Part shown: in pieces, positions 1 through 10,528 of the stretch
How the letters are laid out: the number at the start of each line of letters is the position of its first letter
Position numbering within the stretch: the stretch's first letter is position 1
Assembly: GCA_027600665.1 (NCBI GenBank)
Contig: JADGJL010001051.1
Coordinates: forward strand, 1 to 10,620
Length of the DNA stretch: 10,620 bases
Source: Irineochytrium annulatum
Lineage: Eukaryota; Chytridiomycota; Chytridiomycetes; Chytridiales; Chytridiaceae
Direction of reading: 5' to 3'
Made by a program: the position numbers and the translations under genes
The notes under the pieces: model-generated
What the model was told of the DNA's origin: nothing
The model's input: only the letters and a program-made list of their open reading frames with translations
Database searches by the model: none

Positions 1-2347
1 TCCCATCGCCCCCTGATGTCGGCACATCTGCCGACACCCCCATCCCCACAAGCCCCTCCCTCGCCTGCGGCACAACCGTCCACGCGACCCGTCCCGAACC
101 GGCCCGAATCGGCTCTACATAGCAATAAGTGACGCTCGACCCCGTCGGCGACGTCGGTGCGACATCGCCTCTCCGCGCCTGCGCAGAGAGCGTCACGTAC
201 CCCGTTCGCGGGTTATGGTTCAAAAACCTCCTGCCCGCAAATCCGGCTGGCACGGGCATCCAAAGGGGCGTCTGCTCACGCTCCAGGGCGGCGGCGCGGT
301 ACAGAGTGAGGAGGTGCCGGTCCGTTAAAAGGCCCGAGGGCTCGACCTCGTCCACGAGGTCCGTAGCCGAGATGCCCGCCAGGTCTAGCGTGGCGAGCAC
401 CTTGGAGAGCGTCGGCCGTCGAGGGGAGATGGTAAGATCGCCGGCATTGCTGCGGCCGTCGACGCCACGATCGAGAATGCCGCCGCCGCCGCCAACGTTA
501 AATCCCCATCCGCCGCCGCCCTCCCCACGTTTTAACGACGCGTAGTTACCCGCGCTGTAGATGGATGCTGGCCGCCGCGGGAGGGTTCCGCCGTTAGCGC
601 CGTTCGAGATATAGGTGATGGTCGTGCTGTTGGAAAGGTAGCTCTCGCGTTTTCGTGACGAGATGTTCGACGCCGGGTATTGCGGCCTCGATCTTGGTGA
701 TGAGGGTGTTGACCTAATCTCGGCGTCGTCGGCCTCCGACTCTGGGTATGCATCGTCCTCGTACGCACCGCCGTTGCCGCCGCCATCAAACGTCGGCGAC
801 AGCGGTGACACGCCCGCGCTGCTCGGCGCCGCATTTCCCGCCGCCGTCGCATACCCATTCATAGACGACGCCATGCTCGTCTTTCTCGCGACGGACCTCC
901 CGTTCCCGTTCCTCCCCACGTCGTTCCCGGCCGTGACCTCATCGTCATTAACGTCCTCCTCGTCCATATTCCTCCCCATCATCCAGCTCCTCACCAGCCT
1001 GAACCTGCCAATAGGCGGCTCCAGCTCCCGCGGTATCGCGTTGATGACCTTGATCAAAGTCTCCAGTCTCGTCCCCAGCACCCTGCCCAGCTCCGCGCGG
1101 TGCTGCTCTCCGCCAAACAGGCGCCAGAAGGACGTTGCGGTACCAACGAGAAGGTCGTCAAGTCTGTACGCGTCCGCCGCCATCCACATCTCCCGGCACG
1201 TCTCGCGCGGGTCCTCGGAATGTGAAAGGCTGAGCCCTTGCCCATGATGATGCCCATAACCCGCGTACGACACCCCCGAGCTCACGCCGGCCTGCGACGC
1301 GAATCGGTGGAACATGGCGACGAAGCTGTCCCGGTACGCGGGCGATCGCTCCTGCACGCCTAGGTAGTCCGTGACGCGGAAGCACTCAAGGACGAGGCGC
1401 CAGTCGGTCGAGGTCGGGGACGTGGCCTCGTCCTCCTCCTCGGCGGTGTAGAGAAATCGGCGGACGATCCGAAAGGCGTCCGGGTCCAGGACGGTGAGGT
1501 CAACAATCGGGGGGTTGGTGGGGTCGAGGGAAAGGTTGGAGGGAGGTTGGGAGAAGAGGCGGCGGAAGTAGTCGCTCCGGGCTTGGAGCATAATTCTATA
1601 GGAAAACGCTTGTAAGGACCAGAGGTACCGCGACGAAGAACAACGCAAGTGGCATAGTACGGTCTACAGGAAGGATGCAAACAGCACGTCGCGTTTAGGC
1701 ACCGGGTGCTTGCGCGCTGAATATCCCACACTCCAACTACTACTTGCAACACCGATTGCAGACCCTTCCACAGCTTGCATGCACACTCACTTGTGAGATC
1801 TGAACTCGACCTGGTCCTCTCCAACAATGACATGAACGTCCGCGCTGGCCTCATCGTTCATAAGCGCCAACAGGTCATTTCTAAGCCTGATCTGCGTCGC
1901 ATGCACGGCCGCGGCCGCCGCCCCGCTGCCGCCCCCAGGGAACGGAAACTGCTGCCCGGAAAGTCCCTGGTGGCTCGGCGGGCTCGAGAAGGACGGTAAG
2001 GGTGACGGCGTGGGCGACGGTGGCAGGGTGACGGTTCCGGCGCCACCACCAAAGATGTTTGGAAAGGACGGGAGGAACATGGATGAGCGCTTAGATGCTG
2101 ACGGGGAGGAGTTGGAGGACTTGCTTGTGCCGATCTGCTGCTGCTGCTGCTGCTGTGACAAGGACCCCATGGCACCGTTCCCGACGGCGCCAGCGACCTG
2201 AGCTGAGTTCCAGGCGAGCAGGCTGGCGCTGACGGAGTTCGAGGCGACGGAGAGGCGACGCTCTGGGGATGAGTACGGAGATGCCGCGCGAAGACCGAGT
2301 CCTTGGGAAGCTGTCATGCCCTCGAATCGTGGCGGCATGTCGTCCAT
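1..2347 (-). CDS. BTB/POZ-BACK domain protein, partial (C-terminus beyond left edge)
   Basis: Exon 1 is 2347-1791 and exon 2 is 1595-1, open to the window edge, giving about 717 residues so far. Splicing at 1790 (GTGAGT) and 1596 (TATAG) joins FRSHK to IMLQARSDYFRRLF, the hallmark centre of a BTB/POZ fold, so this 195-bp intron is well supported. Residues 1-150 are low complexity (a run of seven Gln from a CTG tract at 2135-2155, Ser/Pro/Gly-rich stretches). BTB covers about 155-260. A BACK-like helical region follows (about 260-390, with MWMAADAYRLDDLL and RLVRSWMMGRN). A Gly/Asn/Ser-rich stretch (about 395-570) then precedes a block with DLVDEVEPSGLL (about 580-620), which resembles the end of BACK in BTBD9-type proteins. 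The start is the first ATG after an in-frame stop (TGA, complement of 2360-2362) and has G at -3 and +4. Such proteins often act as Cullin-3 adaptors or protein scaffolds; the actual partner cannot be told here. Confidence 0.88.
1596..1790 (-). other. Intron of the BTB gene
   Basis: The donor is GTGAGT (1790-1785) and the acceptor is TATAG (ending 1596). It is a phase-2 intron that splits the Lys codon of FRSHK. At 195 bp it is three to four times longer than most introns of the neighbouring gene. The precise gap-free match of the joined protein to the BTB consensus supports both borders. Confidence 0.85.
2135..2155. repeat. (CTG)7 microsatellite, poly-Gln in the BTB protein
   Basis: Seven uninterrupted CTG units on the plus strand are read as CAG on the minus strand, encoding seven Gln in the N-terminal low-complexity part of the BTB protein. 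A pure repeat of this kind is prone to length polymorphism. Confidence 0.9.
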
Positions 2348-2965: not shown

Positions 2966-5900
2966 TTAAGCGAGCAGCTTCACCATCGCCATCTGCAAGG
3001 TGGGGGTCCAATCATCCAGCACGGCCCTCTCATACGCGCCAACCGCCGACCCCTCGGACACGACGAGCACGCCAGCGACCGTGAACACCCCGTCGCCCGC
3101 CGCGTCCGCCAGATCAACGACGGCCCTAAACCCATCGTCCCTTTCGAGCGAAACTACCCTCCGCCGACCCTCGGAACGGACAACCCTCGCGTCGACATTA
3201 AACTCATCCTGCAGGCCAGTGAGTTCGGCCGTCAAGCGCGCGTTCGCGTCCACGCTCGCATCGGGTATGGACGCGTCCGCAGACTCCGGGTTAAAGGGGT
3301 TCTTGTAGTCATACTCGACCCAAGAGTCTATGCTCGCACGATCAGTAACATTACAATTGAAAACAAACATCCGAATGCACGTCAAGAAGATAACATCTCA
3401 CCTTCAGTTCCCATGAACCCATCGTCAACGCCAACATCCGCCTGCACCGTCTCAGTCGAGCTCCAAGCGCCAGTCGAAACACCATCATCAAACCCAAACA
3501 TGCCGTCCACGACCGAAGGCCTGGTCGCCGCTCCAGTATCCCGAACAAGACAGTCCCGCCCAAAAAACGCCTCAAGTTCCTTCCCAACTCGCGCCTTCGC
3601 GCCGCCGTCACCAATCGACCCGGCAGACCCGGGCACCTTCCCCTGCTGCTGCTGCTGTTGCATGGCCTGCTGCTGCTCCTCCAGCTTTACGGCCGGCACA
3701 TTCTTGTACGGATTCCCGGGCAAATCAATGTGGAACTTGCCGCCCGGCGACAGCTTCGGCGCGTTCGTCTGCTGCTGCTGCGACATCGCGCCAGCCATCC
3801 GTTGTTGCATCGCGTTCTGCTGCTGCTGTGCCTGCAGCTGCTGAGCCGACAGCGCGTGCGCCTGCTGCATCTGTTGCATCTGGAGCTGCGCTTGCTGACG
3901 CTGCTGCTCCGTCAGCCCCACACCGCCAGCCGCGGCCCATTGCTGCTGCTGTTGTGCAAGCTGCTGTTGCTGTTCCTTCTTCTTCTGCAGGAACGGCGTC
4001 GGGTCCACACCCGTTTTTTTCCTAAACTCCTCCGTGACCTCCCTCTCGCGCGTCGGGTTCTTGAGGATGGTCGCGTGCAGCATCTGGAGGACGGCGTCGA
4101 GCTTCGCGGGCTCGATGACGGTCGGCTGCGTCGGGACGACGTTAGCCGTCAAGTTTGGGGTGCGGTTGTTTGCCGCCGCCATCGGCGCCGCCGCGTTCTG
4201 CTGCACGGTAGGCGAAGCCTTCCCCCTCCCTCGGCCGCGGCCCGCGGGCGGCTTACCACTCGTTGCCGCGTTCGACGAAAGGGCGGCCGCCCCAGTCGTA
4301 AGAGGCGCTGCCGCGGCGGCGGCGTTCTTGCTAAAGTTTGAGGGCGCCGATGAGGGCGGCGAGGCCTGTGACATGGGCATCGCATTTGGTGAAGGTGAGC
4401 TGTCGACGTTAATAACCTCCATCGACGCCAGCTGCTGATTCTGCATACGCTCCTGGTACTTCTTCTGTATCTCGGACGCGTGCGCGAACATCTTGACGAG
4501 GTGGTCGCGGATCTGCATCAGTGTGTTGGGCGGGATGAGGTAGACCTTCGGGTTTTGCTCCAAGCCGTCATACTGCTTCTTCAACAAATCTCGCTGTACA
4601 CAAAACGTCAACGAAAATACTAACACTACGGAAACGATGGGGCACGAACCATGTGATTGATCTTTTGAATCTTGTCGTCCTCCTTTTTCTCCCCATACTG
4701 TGTGAGCGCCTGCACCAGGGCCTGGATATTGTCGAAGACGTGCCGCATCTCCGTCATCAGCATGACGATTTGACTCTTTTGATCCTCAGACGGCGTGAAC
4801 TGGGGATTGCTGGGAGGGGCAGAAGCTATAATCGACAAAAAAGAAAAGAAATACACTCAGAAACGTCCCAATCAAAACGCGATGTGTACAAACCCGCCGG
4901 TGCCGCCCCGAATCCAGTCGCTGGCGGTGTGCCCGCATTCGCGGCCTGCTGCTGCTGAATCAGCCGTTGCGCCTGGAGGTTCAGCTGCTGATATTGACTC
5001 AAGCTCGGGCTGGCAGACGACGCACCCATACCTAAAGCGAAAGAATCGGTTTAAAGACCACAGTCAACGGCGCCAAAGTAGAAACCCCACGTTGCTGCTG
5101 AGATATCTTCGTGAGCTCGGCGTTGATCAAAGCCACCGCGTTCGGGGTGAGCCTCTCCTGCGGAAGATTAAGCTTCTGCGCAATCACCTCGGGCCCCAGG
5201 TCGGTCTGCCCGCCCGCCCTGGCGAAAAGGAGCTGCGCCAGCTTCTGGTACTGTTGTTGTTGCTGCTGTTGTTGCTGTTGCTGCTGCGCTTGTTGGGCCT
5301 GCTGAGCTTGTTGAGCTTGCTGAGCCTGGGCTAGTCGAAGTTGCTTGATGACGGAATTATAAGAACGATGATGCAATGGTAACAAGTCAAACGACATACC
5401 TGCGCCGCCTGAAGCTGCTGAAACTGATGCGTCTGCTGGGCCTGTTGCGCCTGCGCCTGCTGCAGCGCCAGAGCCTGTTGCTGCGCCTGTTGCTGCTGCG
5501 CCTGCTGCTGTTGCGCGAGCTGTTGCTGGGCCTGCAGATTCTGCAGATGGTTCTGCTGTTGCTGTTGCTGTTGTTGCTGTTGCCCGAGGATCGAGTTCAG
5601 CGACGTATTGTTGACAGTCTGCTGCTGCAGGCTCTGCATCAGGGCCTGATATTGCTGCTCGGTGATCAGCGGTTGGCCCTTTTGCGCGCGCTGCATGTTC
5701 AGATTCGCGAGGTGTTGGGCGCTCGCGCCCGTGACGGCGGACGGGGCCGCCGGCTGTTGCTGAATCTTTAAAACAACGGTAAGTGATAACCCGTCATGCC
5801 CGACGCCCAAAATGCATGCCTACATTGTTCTGCGTCAAAAACGGAGACGCCGACGACTGTTGGGCCAACAGAGCAGCGCTTTGCGCGTTCTGCTGGCTAG

Positions 5901-6527
5901 CCTTCTGCTTGATCTGGTTGATTTTCTGCTGACATTGACTCATATAATCCGCCTAAGGGATCAAACAGTTAGAAATACCATCCACGCTCGTCACCACATC
6001 TTGCCTTTCGGCTCCCAAAGTTTTGAAAGATCGGTGCCTCGAGCCTCTGCGCCGTCGCCTGAACGTCCGCGTCCGGCGTCCCCGAGGCCATTAGCTTTAT
6101 GCCGTCGAAACTGTGTAGCACTTTTGTAAGCGCACAGCCGAAAGCAACAATATAGCACTTACAAAGCCTTAATAACGAGCTGCCTGTCGGTCTCCGAAAC
6201 TTGCGTGTTACCCGTAAACATGTTGTTAGCGAACTGCTGCTGTTGTGGCTGTTGTTGTTGCTGTTGCTGTAATTGTTGCTGTTGTTGCTGCTGTTGGAGC
6301 ATCAGCTGCGCCATTAGCTGCTGGGGCCTCTGTTGTTGTTGCTGCTGCTGAAGCAACTGCTGCTGCAAAAGCTGCTGCTGTTGGTGTTGCTGTTGTTGTT
6401 GTTGCTGTTGCTGTTGCTGCTGGTGTTGTTGCTGAAGCTGGAGGAGAACGACGTTCGCCATTGCCGGATTTGACTTCATCAGCTCCTGAAGGAGGTTCAT
6501 GTTTAACTGGCCATTCTGGTTGTTCAT
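2966..6527 (-). CDS. Mediator tail subunit Med15/Gal11-like, polyQ-rich with KIX-like segment
   Basis: Nine exons restore one frame: 6527-6163, 6110-6005, 5952-5824, 5765-5400, 5343-5091, 5031-4894, 4825-4650, 4593-3402, 3327-2966; 3087 nt, about 1028 residues. The N-terminus is Gln-rich (about 30-100). A KIX-like segment follows (about 110-180; TDRQLVIKAFFDGIKLM, then ADYMSQCQQKINQIKQKA), recalling the activator-binding domain of fungal Gal11/Med15. Further polyQ blocks lie at about 255-370. A helical region (about 455-560; QIVMLMTEMRHVFDNIQALV) precedes a Gln-rich part (about 690-830) and a conserved-looking C-terminus with DSWVEYDYKNPFNP and a final hydrophobic stretch ending MVKLLA. Med15 links transcription activators to Mediator and RNA polymerase II in the nucleus. 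The start follows an in-frame TAA at 6557-6555. The family call rests on KIX pattern plus architecture, not on a database match; another polyQ coactivator remains possible. Confidence 0.72.
3640..3990. repeat. Internal polyQ region of the Med15-like gene
   Basis: Repeated CTG/TTG triplets on the plus strand encode Gln-rich runs with Ala, Met and Leu on the minus strand, within exon 8 of the Med15-like gene. The antisense frames appear as poly-Leu, poly-Cys or poly-Ala and are artefacts of the repeat. Confidence 0.8.
5240..5580. repeat. CAG/CAA and Gln-Gln-Ala repeats in the Med15-like gene
   Basis: Two Gln-rich blocks flank an intron: a QQA-type repeat followed by about twelve Gln (around 5250-5325), and a QQA/QAQ block with eight or more Gln (around 5410-5580). 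Copies of GCC/GCT CAG CAG units alternate, which also supplies several candidate AG acceptors for the intron between them. Confidence 0.8.
5953..6004 (-). other. GC-AG intron in the Med15-like gene
   Basis: The exon ends CGAAAG and the intron begins GCAAGA, a GC donor with otherwise strong consensus. It contains TTTCTAACTG as branch site and ends CCCTTAG. Length is 52 bp, phase 0. No GT in the surrounding sequence gives the phase needed to continue into ADYMSQCQQ, and reading through meets a stop soon after. Confidence 0.75.
6111..6162 (-). other. Intron 1 of the Med15-like coding region
   Basis: The donor is GTAAGT, the acceptor CTACACAG, and the length 52 bp. Joining produces IKAFFDGIKLM within the KIX-like helix. 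The other GT-AG introns are 5766-5823, 5344-5399 (or 5326-5399), 5032-5090, 4826-4893, 4594-4649 and 3328-3401; all keep the frame. Confidence 0.8.
6234..6440. repeat. CAG/CAA-type repeat, N-terminal polyQ of the Med15-like gene
   Basis: Dense CTG/TTG triplets on the plus strand are read as mixed CAG and CAA on the minus strand, encoding long Gln runs with occasional His, Leu and Met. The CAA interruptions should make it more stable than a pure CAG tract. Confidence 0.9.
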
Positions 6528-6658: not shown

Positions 6659-7480
6659 TCAGCATCCGCTTCGTTCCGACTGCGCAGGGCTCGAAGTCGC
6701 CGGTCGCGTCCGTGAAAAGAGCGGGCAGAGTCCGGCCAGGCTGTTCCCGACAAGCCCTCGCGCGTGTTGATCGAGGCCTGCACAGCGCTGACTGCACGAC
6801 AGTACCATTCGGCCTCCAACTAGCACCGGCATGCGCTAAAGGGGCTCCGACCTCGACTTGGGTCGCGGCGTTCTGCCAAGCCCGCACCGTTGCCCGTGCA
6901 CAATCGGGCGGCACAATCTGATCTCCAGCTCGTCCCTCCAGCCATCCGCTCAGCTGCCGCGTCCGGGTCGTCGTTCGTCGCTGGCTCACCTGATGGAGGC
7001 CTGATGTCTAATAACTTTGACGAACTTCCTGGCCATGATGGCATGTGGGAGCCGTCCTTAAACGAGATAATTGACTCCCATCCGCGCAGCGGGCCAGCGG
7101 CTATTTCAAAGGACGTTAACGCATTGACCGATATAACGGCTTTTCGATTTTTCTGTATGTCTTCATCAAATGACGGACGCACATTTGAAGACGGCACTGC
7201 GCCGATGTCGGTAGCGCCGCTGTAAGTATCGTCGGGTGCCGGGCCACGTTCAAATTGCCGAATGCAGATCTCGATTCTGCTGCTGATCTAGGCTCCTCCA
7301 GTCGCAGGGCCATGAGATAATATCCATCGCCAAAAGCTCAGCGGAGAAATGAGTTTCCGGTGTATTAATGGATGTGGACCGGCTTTCGCATCACAAAGGC
7401 CTTTACAAACGCATTGAGCAATCCGGCGGCTGCATCTTAACTCCTCTTCACCATCTGAACACACTATAAGCGTATAACGG
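6659..7480. other. Intergenic region upstream of the Med15-like gene
   Basis: No convincing gene is seen. The part nearest the Med15-like gene should hold its 5' UTR exon and promoter. A plus-strand frame from ATG 7004 (73 codons, ending 7224) is followed at its stop by CTGTAAGT, a good splice donor, with candidate acceptors near 7290. An overlapping minus-strand frame (6820-7197) is also open. Neither has a recognisable domain, so both are left as possibilities only. Confidence 0.5.
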
Positions 7481-7492
7481 GTATAAGATGAA

Positions 7493-7498
7493 TTTATT
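7493..7498 (-). terminator. Polyadenylation signal downstream of the first minus-strand peptide gene
   Basis: TTTATT on the plus strand (AATAAA on the minus strand) lies just beyond the tandem repeat, 223 bp after the stop of the small gene at 7858. A transcript using it would include the broken extra copy of the core. Confidence 0.5.
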
Positions 7499-7510
7499 TA
7501 TGAGTTGTGA

Positions 7511-7780
7511 GTTGTTTAACTTCCAGGCGTGCTGCAGCTCGGTCTTCGTCGCTTGCACGTTCTTTCGACGCAAGTTCTTGGCGGACTCAGATGATGCTGG
7601 CGTGACCGCCGACAGCGCTAATAAAGACGGTGCTCGCTTGACGTGTTGTTTAACTTCCAGGCGTGCTGCAGCTCGGTCTTCGTCGCTTGCACGTTCTTTC
7701 GACGCAGGTTCTTGGCGGACTTAGATGATGTTGGCGTGACCGCCGACGGCGCTCAGAAGGACGGGTGCTCGCTTGACGTG
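7511..7780. repeat. Tandem direct repeat, two ~135-bp units (7511-7644 and 7645-7780)
   Basis: The two units match closely, with about seven substitutions and one single-base indel. Each unit spans the HVKR core coding end of the minus-strand peptide gene plus about 75 bp of its 3' UTR. Unit 7645-7780 belongs to the intact gene; unit 7511-7644 is the extra copy. Confidence 0.92.
7587..7645 (-). pseudogene. Truncated, frameshifted extra copy of the peptide core
   Basis: The copy starts at CAC GTC AAG CGA GCA, matching HVKRA of the intact gene, but the next Pro codon has lost one C, shifting the frame. Ignoring that loss, the remainder still parallels the VGGHA(N/S)II tail and ends with TGA in place of TAA. 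It has no start codon or leader of its own and sits in the 3' UTR of the intact gene. Confidence 0.75.
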
Positions 7781-7858
7781 CGCGGGCTTCTTGATCGCGG
7801 CCTGGGAGGGTGAGGCGGCGGCGATCGCGGAGACAGTGGTTTGGGTTGAGGCGGGCAT
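7721..7858 (-). CDS. Small peptide-precursor-like protein, 45 aa (pair 1, minus member)
   Basis: This 45-residue protein has a variable Ser/Thr/Ala-rich N-terminus beginning MPASTQ, then KKPAHVKR (residues 23-30) followed by APVLLSAVGGHANII to the stop. I do not recognise the family. Three paralogues in this window (8255 plus, 9173 minus, 9535 plus) share MPA at the start and the PAH[VI]KRAPV core, which supports a real gene despite its size. The Lys-Arg before APV looks like a Kex2-type processing site, so a 15-residue product is conceivable. However, no hydrophobic signal peptide is visible and no C-terminal CAAX motif is present, so secretion is unproven. The start has A at -3 and a GATAAAAGG box about 115 bp upstream. 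It is divergent from the gene at 8255. Confidence 0.75.
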   Translation of the reverse strand: MPASTQTTVSAIAAASPSQAAIKKPAHVKRAPVLLSAVGGHANII

Positions 7859-8254
7859 TTTAGTCGAGGTTGGAGGTGGGTTGTTGTTTGAAGGAAGTCA
7901 AGGTGAAGGCGTCCAAGACGAGATCTGTAGTTTCTTGATGTTGGTGGTGTTCGACGACGTCGGCAGGTCCTTTTATCGGCCTTCGTTCCGCGTGGATGCC
8001 AATGTATGTTGTGGACAGGTTGTTGAACCGCGTGGATCGTGGCCATGTCGAAGTTGTTGGCTTGAATGGCACTTCCACTCCACGTTTGCGGGCAACTGCG
8101 GTCCGTGAACAACACCCCCCTACCGCGACACCAGCCGCAGATCCCATAAAGGCGCCAGGAACTCGTCCTTGCCGACCAGCACTTCAATAGCAAACGCGCC
8201 TTCGGCCTTGAATACTCTCCCACTCCGGCTTCCTCATCAATTCTATCATCAAAA
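7859..8254. promoter_or_regulatory. Bidirectional promoter region of peptide gene pair 1
   Basis: This 396-bp region lies between two divergent start codons. TATA-like boxes point outward: GATAAAAGG on the minus strand (7977-7969) and CATAAAGG on the plus strand (8145-8152), each 110-119 bp from its ATG. The central part, GGATCGTGGCCATGTCG followed by a CTTCCAC segment, has a recognisable counterpart between the second gene pair, and the two 5' UTRs match those of the corresponding genes there. Confidence 0.6.
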
Positions 8255-8407
8255 ATGCCTGCCTCCACGACCATCTCCTCGAGCTCCAGTTCCACCGCGG
8301 CTTCCTCTGCCACCGTCACAGTTTCCGCCAGCTCACGGCCGGCTCACATCAAGCGAGCCCCCGTCATGCTCGGCGGTCCCGCGATCCCTCACGCGACAAT
8401 CCTGTAA
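8255..8407 (+). CDS. Small peptide-precursor-like protein, 50 aa (pair 1, plus member)
   Basis: This 50-residue protein begins MPASTTI and has a Ser-rich leader (six consecutive Ser at 8-13). SRPAHIKR (27-34) is followed by APVMLGGPAIPHATIL. It is closest to the gene at 9535: the core codons of RPAHIKRAPVML differ between them only at synonymous sites apart from the flanks, and both end PHATIL followed by CTGTAAAT. Compared with the two minus-strand members, the post-KR segment is one residue longer and carries Pro in place of Gly before HA. No signal peptide, membrane segment or CAAX box is seen. The start has A at -3 (AAAAATG). GTAAAT overlapping the stop could be misread as a splice donor, but no suitable acceptor at typical intron length is evident. 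The function is unknown. Confidence 0.75.
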   Translation: MPASTTISSSSSSTAASSATVTVSASSRPAHIKRAPVMLGGPAIPHATIL

Positions 8408-8605
8408 ATTGCAAGCCATCCTAAACCAACATTAAGATCACCAGGCAAGGCTTTGCGTTAAGCTCAGCGTTCAACACGCCGCGGCGCATGGCTGTAAAGT
8501 CGCAGCGCGGAGCAGGGAGCAAGAACGCAACAATGTACCCCCAGGTTCCTCCGCCCTTTGGCGGGGGCAATATTATCATTCGTAGTTTTTGTTTTCTAAA
8601 CAAAT

Positions 8606-8617
8606 AATAAATACGCC
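8606..8617 (+). terminator. Polyadenylation signal AATAAATACGCC
   Basis: This lies 199 bp after the stop of the gene at 8255. The same 12-mer occurs 236 bp after the stop of its paralogue at 9535, indicating a shared ancestral 3' end. Confidence 0.6.
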
Positions 8618-8959
8618 CATGTATGTCCGCAAACTACCGGTACATGCTCTCGCCACTTGCTGACACCGAAGTTAGACTTTGGCTGACCGCAACGGCCATC
8701 ATTCCATGTGAACATAAGTCATAAACCGGCGCTGACGCCTAATCTTGTACGGAGGTCCGCTGGAGGGAGCTTATCAATGATTTCCATCTTCCTTTGCTCC
8801 TTCCGCCCTTCGACATCCTCTTTTTGCAGAACTCGCCGCTCATACTAAAAAACGAAACCATGCAATGAAAATGCCAAAAATCCGGAGTGTTGGTTGGGTA
8901 TTCGAAAAACGGAACGCGAACAAAACGTACGTGCAACTAATGTGTAGGTATAATATTGT

Positions 8960-8965
8960 TTTATT
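8960..8965 (-). terminator. Polyadenylation signal of the second minus-strand peptide gene
   Basis: TTTATT on the plus strand is AATAAA on the minus strand, 23 bp beyond the stop of the gene at 9173. The short distance fits the view that this stop codon is a secondary one, located in former 3' UTR. Confidence 0.5.
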
Positions 8966-8987
8966 GTGATAAGCTGTGATATGCACT

Positions 8988-9173
8988 TTAAATGATAGTT
9001 GCTTCGAATCGGGCGGTTCGCGGGTCTTGGATGGTGGCGTGACCACCGATGGTGCTTAGGAGAACAGGCGCTCGCTTGACGTGTGCGGGCTTGTGCATTG
9101 CCGTGTTGGCGGGGGAGGCGGCGGTGGAGGCGGACGGAGTCGTGGAGGCGGCGGTTTGGTTCGCGGCGGGCAT
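8988..9173 (-). CDS. Small peptide-precursor-like protein, 61 aa (pair 2, minus member, extended C-terminus)
   Basis: This 61-residue protein begins MPAANQT. The leader is rich in Ala, Ser and Thr, and HKPAHVKR (27-34) is followed by APVLLSTIGGHATI. It is closest to the gene at 7858: through the core, codon differences are nearly all third-position and silent (six in KPAHVKRAPVLL alone), followed by A/T and V/I replacements. Where the paralogue stops after HANII, this gene reads CAA instead of TAA and runs on for 13 codons (QDPRTARFEATII), so the tail appears to arise by stop loss. The frame is also open upstream of this ATG, but the shared MPA start and the TATA-like box 117 bp upstream favour 9173. 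No signal peptide is visible. The function is unknown. Confidence 0.72.
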   Translation of the reverse strand: MPAANQTAASTTPSASTAASPANTAMHKPAHVKRAPVLLSTIGGHATIQDPRTARFEATII

Positions 9174-9534
9174 CTTCAGGATGACTCGAGGTGGGCTGGT
9201 ATTTGGGAAGATGTGAAGGTCGTCGAGTCGGGAAGGTAGCTGATGATGATGCTGGTGGCCGCAACGACCTGAACAACCCCTCTTTATAGGCTGCGACTGC
9301 GCGTGGAGGCTGTCGTGATTCGTGAGGCCGCAAAACGGCATGGATGGTGGCCCTGTCGGCGGCTTGTATCGGCTTCCACGCTCAATCGTTCGGCATGGGG
9401 CATCAGAGAGGTCTCTCGCGAGGCTGTCCGTTGCCGCGATCTCATAAAAGGTTCCCCGCCTCGTCCATGTCGGCCCATCCCGCACTTCAACACCAGACTC
9501 GCCTTCTATTCTTCACCCAACTCGGAAATCGTAC
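9174..9534. promoter_or_regulatory. Bidirectional promoter region of peptide gene pair 2
   Basis: This 361-bp region lies between divergent starts. CCTATAAAGAGG on the minus strand (9290-9279) and CATAAAAGG on the plus strand (9443-9451) are outward TATA-like boxes, 117 and 92 bp from their ATGs. GGATGGTGGCCCTGTCGG followed by CGGCTTCCAC matches the central part of the pair 1 promoter, and the 5' UTRs are alignable to those of pair 1. Confidence 0.6.
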
Positions 9535-9690
9535 ATGCCTGCCAACGCGACCACCTCCTCGGCCTCCAATGTCAACACGGTCGCCACCGCTCCCTCCGCC
9601 GCGGTTCCCGCCAGCACTAGGCCGGCCCACATCAAGCGAGCGCCCGTCATGCTATGCGGCCCGTTCATGCCGCACGCGACGATCCTGTAA
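9535..9690 (+). CDS. Small peptide-precursor-like protein, 51 aa (pair 2, plus member)
   Basis: This 51-residue protein begins MPANATT. The leader is rich in Ala, Thr, Ser and Val and unlike that of the paralogue at 8255. TRPAHIKR (28-35) is followed by APVMLCGPFMPHATIL. The conserved core against variable leader is the pattern expected of a processed peptide precursor; the single Cys after APVML is unique to this member. It is not in a CAAX position. Diverged from the gene at 9173 and controlled by its own TATA-like box 92 bp upstream. The downstream AATAAATACGCC at 9926 matches the paralogue. The start context is weaker (T at -3). The function is unknown; a mating or signalling peptide, or an intracellular microprotein, are both open. 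Confidence 0.75.
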   Translation: MPANATTSSASNVNTVATAPSAAVPASTRPAHIKRAPVMLCGPFMPHATIL

Positions 9691-10466
9691 ATGGGCGGCC
9701 ATTAGTTCCCAACCAACGCCTCTCGCGTCCAGAGGATCCCAACAACGACGCGTTAAACAAGCTTGGCGCGAAGATGAGCTCAAGCGCTAGCAGTCCCGAA
9801 GTCGCGGCACCATGAAGCGTGGGGGGAGAAGTTGCAGGCTCACAAGCATGAGGACCCGATATTGGCCCAAAAAAAAAATGGTCGCCGTTATTGTCGTTGT
9901 AAATGCACCTCAGCATGTATGTTACAATAAATACGCCTGCAGGCTTGAGAAGAACACCGGCTCCACAATTGTCCTTTGACTACTTGTCCTGAAAAGTTGC
10001 AAAAGGCCATCGTCGTGACCTAGAACGCTTGAGCAAGAAATTGCCGCTAACAACCATGATTGTATGGTCGTCGCGATATGGTTGAAGCTCTCCTGCGCAG
10101 TGAGTATAAAGAGGATGAAATATATTAAATAACTGATCGTCGTTCAAAAGAAACGAAGATTTGGAAGGGATATCGAGGCAAATTTTGATACAAGAGAATG
10201 CCAACCAGCTAAAGAAAACCAAATGAAATAATCAACTGCGGATATAGTTGGCACAATGATTGCAGACGAGTAATAAGAATGACCCGTAATACAAATAAAA
10301 AGGAAGGAAGGAGCTGTCAAGAGGAACAAATCTCCCTAGAGGACCGGCGAGAAGACAAGGGACCAGCCACTATAATCCTCCACCACCCTCCTCCCCCCAG
10401 AGTCCCTCCTCACCAAAATATTGTGAACTTTTTCCGCATAAGCCCTCCTTACCGAGGCATTATTAA
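9691..10466. other. Intergenic region right of the peptide locus
   Basis: The left part is the 3' UTR of the gene at 9535, with AATAAATACGCC at 9926-9937. From about 9950 to 10350 the DNA is distinctly AT-richer, with only short unrelated frames. TATAAAGAGG at 10105-10114 repeats the box seen at the minus gene of pair 2, but the ATGs just after it open only frames of a few codons. No gene is called. Confidence 0.5.
9926..9937 (+). terminator. Polyadenylation signal AATAAATACGCC
   Basis: It is the same 12-mer as at 8606, lying downstream of the paralogous plus-strand peptide gene. Confidence 0.6.
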
Positions 10467-10508
10467 TCCTTCCACACCCCCGTAATCCCTCCTTACCAAA
10501 TTATTATC
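10402..10508. repeat. Three spaced copies of CCCTCCTYACCRA
   Basis: Copies begin at 10404, 10443 and 10487, spaced 39 and 44 bp, each followed by an A/T-rich ATT-containing tail. On the other strand they read TTGGTAAGGAGGG or close variants, with similarity continuing for about 20 bp. They could be binding sites in a promoter or decayed tandem repeats. Confidence 0.6.
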
Positions 10509-10528
10509 AAGCCCACGCCGCATCAGGA

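Follow-up and report, generated by a model that had tools for sequence, protein, structure and literature searches.

A mostly divergently paired family of small proteins with a conserved C-terminal core in Irineochytrium annulatum

In divergent histone gene pairs two small genes stand back to back around a short control region, and the arrangement is repeated in the genome. Fungal pheromone precursors of the alpha-factor and a-factor types are small and multicopy and combine a leader with a conserved end, and MSDIN-type fungal precursors of ribosomally synthesized and post-translationally modified peptides (RiPPs) are short, genome-encoded and free of a signal peptide. Here, we describe a family of short open reading frames (ORFs) that shares features with each of these systems. 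Four of them lie in the window, a 10 620-nucleotide stretch of Irineochytrium annulatum DNA (JADGJL010001051.1) that is the entire contig C50 of an assembly of 26.9 Mb in 1082 contigs. The evidence supports the family as real protein-coding genes, the core of which appears to be under purifying selection.

As with the histone pairs, two small genes face away from each other across a short control region that they share, in an arrangement that recurs in the genome, but there is no recognised sequence relation and the window proteins have no Pfam match. The family resembles the pheromone precursors in being small and multicopy with a leader and a conserved end; it differs in having neither a strongly hydrophobic N-terminus nor a CAAX end, and in one member that lacks the dibasic KR. 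Short, genome-encoded genes are shared with the MSDIN-type precursors, whereas here the variable part is a Ser/Thr/Ala-rich spacer, the conserved part is C-terminal and there is no MSDIN start. We rate the family as one of probably disordered microproteins that is unusual by virtue of its divergent pairs of two types. Compared with the intrinsically disordered microproteins reviewed in PMC13276856, the likeness lies in short, low-complexity and probably disordered chains, with action through a short motif proposed for our family; the differences are that our family is paralogous, comes as two types in divergent pairs and has no known partner.

The four ORFs of the window are as follows.

7721..7858, minus strand: ORF 1, 45 amino acids, minus-type, KPAHVKRAPVLL..GGHANII; duplicate at C566 7112-7240
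8255..8407, plus strand: ORF 2, 50 amino acids, plus-type, RPAHIKRAPVMLGGP...HATIL; duplicate at C566 6562-6714
8988..9173, minus strand: ORF 3, 61 amino acids, minus-type, C-terminus extended; the copy at C566 5772-5921 has 49 amino acids and the usual stop
9535..9690, plus strand: ORF 4, 51 amino acids, plus-type; duplicate at C566 5256-5411

The original prediction, made from the window alone, had named four related ORFs, two per strand and 45-61 residues long, and all four are found at these coordinates and strands. Their alignment has 16 invariant columns, including M1, P2, A3 and P-A-H-x-K-R-A-P-V-x-L, so that the MPA start and the PAH-KRAPV core proposed earlier are both among them. Upstream of its MPA start, ORF 3 continues without a stop as far as another ATG at 9341 (a 117-residue version); the MPA start was chosen because it aligns with the other ORFs and because a TATA box (9283-9288) lies between the two ATGs. 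The tail of ORF 3, previously described as interrupted by an extension, is indeed part of a 61-residue protein, but the extension looks like a lesion: the C566 counterpart ends in ...HATIL and a stop, and ORF 3 is longer because the 26 bp covering this usual stop are missing from the window.

It had also been argued that the agreement among the four ORFs exceeds chance. This stands, on account of distant copies elsewhere in the genome and of nonsynonymous divergence (dN) lower than synonymous divergence (dS), but the four ORFs do not count as independent cases. Duplication (repeats D8, D9, D15 and D17) links the two divergent pairs that they form, 7721-8407 and 8988-9690, and for this reason their agreement alone is no proof of selection; the proof comes from the distant copies.

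Protein searches of the own genome give 15 intact members on six contigs (four in the window, four on C566, two on C252, three on C738 and one each on C551 and C621), counts that are lower bounds. The diverged copies match ORF 2 at E values from 2.0e-6 (C252) to 0.01 (C621). Two further copies are decayed, with broken frames (C738 about 300-467, minus strand; C551 16391-16477, plus strand). Weak matches on C723, C169 and C258 were dropped on reading as low-complexity chance. The members of the window and C566 form subfamily 1, with [RK]PAH[VI]KRAPV, and those of C252, C738 and C551 form subfamily 2, with [RK]PEHVK[RQ][SC]PV and the C-terminal end T-R-x-L; the C621 member (KPAAVKRSPVLLGG) is an outlier to both. 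The overall C-terminal pattern is [RK]P[AE][HA][VI]K[RQ][ASC]PVx[LIM].

Members are 41-51 residues long, apart from the extended ORF 3 with 61. MPA forms the N-terminus in 13 of the 15, written with varying codons (CCC/CCT and GCC/GCG/GCT). The leaders, of 18-28 residues, are rich in Ser, Thr and Ala throughout, and their changes in length stay in frame. The distance from core to stop is 22-23 residues in 14 members and 34 in ORF 3, and each protein contains 0-2 acidic and 3-6 basic residues. The conserved core with a diverging leader, anticipated from the four ORFs, is supported. Alignments A2 and A3 hold the 14 members other than ORF 3; A3 supersedes A2, in which the C621 row began two residues early.

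Over core and tail, dN is lower than dS in 14 of 15 comparisons chosen from the 105 possible ones. The ratio is below 0.4 in 13 of them; C50_1m/C50_2p gives 0.44, and C50_3m/C566_3p exceeds 1. For the window ORFs the dN and dS values are 0.076 and 0.319 (ORF 1), 0.020 and 0.111 (ORF 2) and 0.083 and 0.993 (ORF 4), while for ORF 3 (0.032 and 0.028) synonymous change is not in excess. C738a_p and C738b_m differ by 11 synonymous and two amino-acid codon changes. In the 15-column core, all 105 pairs, which are not independent, add up to 283, 164 and 575 differences at codon positions 1, 2 and 3, respectively. The sequence just 5' of the ATG differs among members without a splice acceptor in common, from which we infer that ATG-Pro-Ala is the start.

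Codon usage was scored for 11 members, with the four C566 copies left out. The family score of -0.041 per codon is intermediate: it lies above that of five held-out neighbour stretches taken together (-0.355; stop-to-stop frames, which may contain introns) and below those of RPL3 (+0.23) and EF1a (+0.28), which were scored with each other. Synonymous draws at the composition of the 5' flank give -0.377 with a standard deviation of 0.049, about seven standard deviations below the family.

These results bear on the idea that the ORFs are accidents within a non-coding repeat or mobile-element debris. Such a reading could draw on the 2 kb segment that is present at two places in the genome, on a tandem repeat and on the two decayed copies. 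It is nevertheless hardly credible to us in view of the dN and dS values, the codon-position pattern and a codon usage that is best in the proposed frame. Apart from the duplicated segment, the window's DNA matches within its own genome (29 matches, simple repeats skipped) are polyglutamine (polyQ) stretches and one short fragment, 7220-7392. A known non-coding repeat, named in the original prediction as what would refute the family, was looked for in the window and no Rfam match was obtained.

The divergent pairing, which did not figure in the original prediction, extends well beyond the window. Two intact members stand back to back at six loci, with starts 360-397 bp apart, and at two more an intact member faces a decayed copy, at 379 and 398 bp from the start of the latter. 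The C621 member is single, with no partner within the 600 bases read upstream. The corresponding elements of the window are listed here.

7859..8254: divergent control region (396 bp) between ORF 1 and ORF 2 (pair 1), with TATA-like boxes for either strand
9174..9534: divergent control region (361 bp) between ORF 3 and ORF 4 (pair 2), likewise with TATA-like boxes for either strand
7972..7977, minus strand: TATA-like box GATAAA, -119 of ORF 1
8145..8150, plus strand: TATA-like box CATAAA, -110 of ORF 2
9283..9288, minus strand: TATA box TATAAA, -115 of ORF 3
9443..9448, plus strand: TATA-like box CATAAA, -92 of ORF 4
7493..7498, minus strand: AATAAA, possible polyA signal of ORF 1
8603..8608, plus strand: AATAAT, possible polyA signal of ORF 2
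8960..8965, minus strand: AATAAA, possible polyA signal of ORF 3
9926..9931, plus strand: AATAAA, possible polyA signal of ORF 4
7471..9692: segment with both pairs, recurring at C566 5254-7358 (7471-7646 at 83%, 7665-9692 at 93%)
7511..7764: tandem repeat, 134 bp from start to start, copies 7511-7630 and 7645-7764 (94%), repeating part of the ORF 1 tail and 3' region

Thirteen of the 15 members have a TATA-like box between -90 and -120 (C252_m and C738b_p lack one), and a polyA-like signal follows within 320 bases in 13 (AATAAA in eight, other words in five, none in the remaining two). A reading of the ORFs as upstream ORFs or arrest peptides was also considered and is disfavoured by these polyA-like signals and by the convergent orientation of ORF 2 and ORF 3. 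GGAGGGTTAT and CATAGGGTTA-like blocks are common to the four control regions of subfamily 2, and those of subfamily 1 share other blocks. The 15-mer GGTTGGAGGGTTATG has three exact sites in the genome, all in family control regions (one on C551 and two on C738; L064, L065 and L066). The C252 control region is without an exact copy, two sites with one mismatch lie elsewhere and the reversed control pattern has one site.

Beyond 7471-9692 there is no further same-register match between the window and C566, and the right edge of the matching segment falls 2 bp past the ORF 4 stop. A stretch downstream on C566 (4812-4971) resembles the window's inter-pair spacer. A partial core, QHVKRAPSLL, is found in the minus frame 7448-7720, with a tail fragment within the tandem repeat.

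The two members of an intact pair are always of different type. Within subfamily 2, C252_p, C738a_p, C738b_m and C551_m are alike (type A), as are C252_m and C738b_p (type B). Judged by eye, the two decayed copies are closest to B, and the A type that faces each of them remains intact. Support values in trees of these very short sequences are modest, and the pair arrangement may or may not predate the subfamily split. One reading of the pairs is a two-type system: paralogous peptides A and B, made together from one bidirectional control region, would work with or against each other on a single signalling partner, and whole pairs would duplicate as units. We give this a low but real probability.

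The explanation that we favour, at about an even chance, is that these are real genes for intracellular, mostly disordered microproteins with a C-terminal end that serves as a linear binding peptide, and that the pairs are co-regulated. The C-terminal segment would be bound in extended form to one partner protein, with the leader serving as flexible spacer, and both types of a pair would be made together at some stage or stress through the control region that they share. A conserved C-terminal segment of fixed length preceded by a low-complexity spacer fits a linear binding peptide. Localization and partner binding are inferred here from sequence, and on the same grounds the intracellular microprotein appears to be the better of the two options originally offered, the other being a peptide precursor.

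Several observations weigh against this explanation. For C50_3m/C566_3p dN exceeds dS, as the result of a single changed codon, the comparisons of minus- with plus-type members are partly misaligned in the tail, and amino acids change freely in the leaders. Taken singly, members have codon scores between -0.348 (C738b_m) and +0.113, and held-out neighbour stretches between -0.464 and -0.078, with the one at -0.078 being the troublesome value; the five other frames of the family score between -0.816 and -0.166, again with the upper value at issue. Leu and Arg codons deviate from RPL3 usage. The AlphaFold2 scores (a mean predicted local distance difference test score of 59.8, a predicted template-modelling score of 0.17 and a best block of 75 at residues 31-40 within the core) speak for the explanation, but the model, built with 14 related rows, is poor and does not establish disorder.

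The peptide precursor would be a secreted pheromone or RiPP precursor, cut after KR to release a C-terminal peptide of 15-16 residues. The family has the appropriate layout, with a leader, a conserved C-terminal segment and small, multicopy genes, and KR is present in 14 of the 15 members. In addition, C566 (L037:1713-2783) and C252 (L038:6829-7281) each carry an aspartyl protease gene (PF00026) no more than a few kb away from the family; the ORFs scanned on the remaining four contigs include none. This vicinity could be chance. Aspartyl protease is the sole recurrent family among the Pfam matches of 20 neighbouring open stretches, which are part of a longer list. All 15 members lack both a CAAX end and a strongly hydrophobic stretch at the N-terminus, and the intact member C738b_p has KQ in place of KR; together these make a secreted precursor unlikely, and we would give it only a slight chance. 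Signal peptides were assessed through Kyte-Doolittle hydrophobicity only, in nine-residue windows starting at residue 20 or earlier, and the highest mean, 1.66, argues against a signal peptide. The conserved block also reaches upstream of the KR (RP.H.), the variable part is the Ser/Thr/Ala-rich spacer and the four window proteins have no Pfam match.

The members could instead be small organelle-targeted or ribonucleoprotein-associated proteins, in which an acid-poor N-terminus and a basic core would mediate targeting or RNA contact and not dock a peptide onto a protein. The scarcity of acidic residues, the composition of the leaders in all 15 members and the shift of codon usage towards RPL3 and EF1a are compatible with this. 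Mitochondrial presequences, however, usually contain Arg or Lys, and 12 of the 15 leaders contain neither; moreover, the basic residues number only 3-6 per protein. Targeting or RNA contact is improbable, but not so much as to be negligible.

A more specific form of the favoured binding-peptide explanation is that the core, KR-xP-V-x-[LI], mimics a mitogen-activated protein kinase (MAPK) docking site (D-site), fills the docking groove and tunes signalling. The docking pattern is matched in 13 of the 15 members, compared with 0.9 expected from residue shuffles, and the genome contains 73 protein kinase domain matches at E ≤ 1e-20, a search that shows kinase domains and not MAPKs as such. The members share descent, so that the count is not independent, and eight patterns were run. 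The pattern fails in C738b_m and C738b_p, it leaves the conserved flanks P-x-H and GGP unexplained, and 12 of the 15 members have SP/TP sites, about as many as expected by chance (12.2). The resemblance is only a lead, and MAPK docking itself seems rather improbable. The calcineurin PxIxI, RVxF and HP1 PxVxL patterns are each matched in none of the 15 members, and the PDZ class I pattern in seven, all of subfamily 1, versus 1.5 expected.

Relatives of the family were sought in several collections, which probably include few fungi. A Pfam scan of the four window proteins gave no family at E ≤ 10. Among 5.8 billion proteins, a database in which the window's own proteins were not listed, the four-row alignment produced 344 candidates and the 14-row alignment 5190, in both cases none at E ≤ 10. 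A PDB profile search returned one match (E = 0.64), judged to be chance. One pattern match in the viral IMG/VR and 23 in the prokaryotic GTDB genomes were obtained, none of which was confirmed. ORF 3 is absent from the 14-row protein-database, PDB, AlphaFold2, IMG/VR and GTDB runs. No occurrence of the family's motif strings was found in the open-licence literature. These absences are weak evidence of novelty because IMG/VR and GTDB cover viruses and prokaryotes, the window's own proteins were not listed in the protein database and the papers are open-licence only. The earlier description of the family as unrecognised agrees with 15 intact members, an apparently selected core and no match in Pfam (four proteins) or the protein database.

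Annotation pipelines easily overlook genes as short as about 45 codons. Finding a multicopy, selected and mostly paired family in what seems to be an early-branching lineage of fungi suggests that regulatory microproteins without a described function are present in such genomes. The system lends itself to testing, given its peptide end of fixed length, its two types and its compact control regions shared within pairs.

A radial-spoke protein (PF04712) is present on C1052 (E = 9.5e-51), and C738, which carries family members, has a weak SHIPPO-repeat match (E = 6e-4); tektin (PF03148) was not found in the assembly. The ribosomes that best match one RPL3 exon are presumably fungal, the match itself giving no species. 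Together, the radial-spoke protein and the RPL3 match suggest that the organism is a zoosporic fungus. C392 (L072) carries both an EF-Tu and a ribosomal L3 of bacterial type, as judged by eye, and because of this bacterial-looking sequence marker genes on other contigs may stem from another organism.

Elsewhere in the window, 7220-7392 matches C256:456-642 at 78%, apparently an intron and exon of a gene that we take, from its motifs, to be D-amino-acid-oxidase-like, and the window copy appears to be a relic. The minus strand of 2966-6527 holds a strongly polyQ-rich, apparently multi-exon gene that is Med15-like by eye only; one open stretch of it (3385-4785) has no Pfam match. An open frame at 2-1663 on the minus strand matches BTB/POZ weakly, at 20.3 bits, and so narrowly misses the Pfam cut-off of 20.5 bits. 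Finally, 10395-10513 contains three imperfect copies of a 36-nucleotide repeat (D11) with CCCTCCTYACC-like cores.

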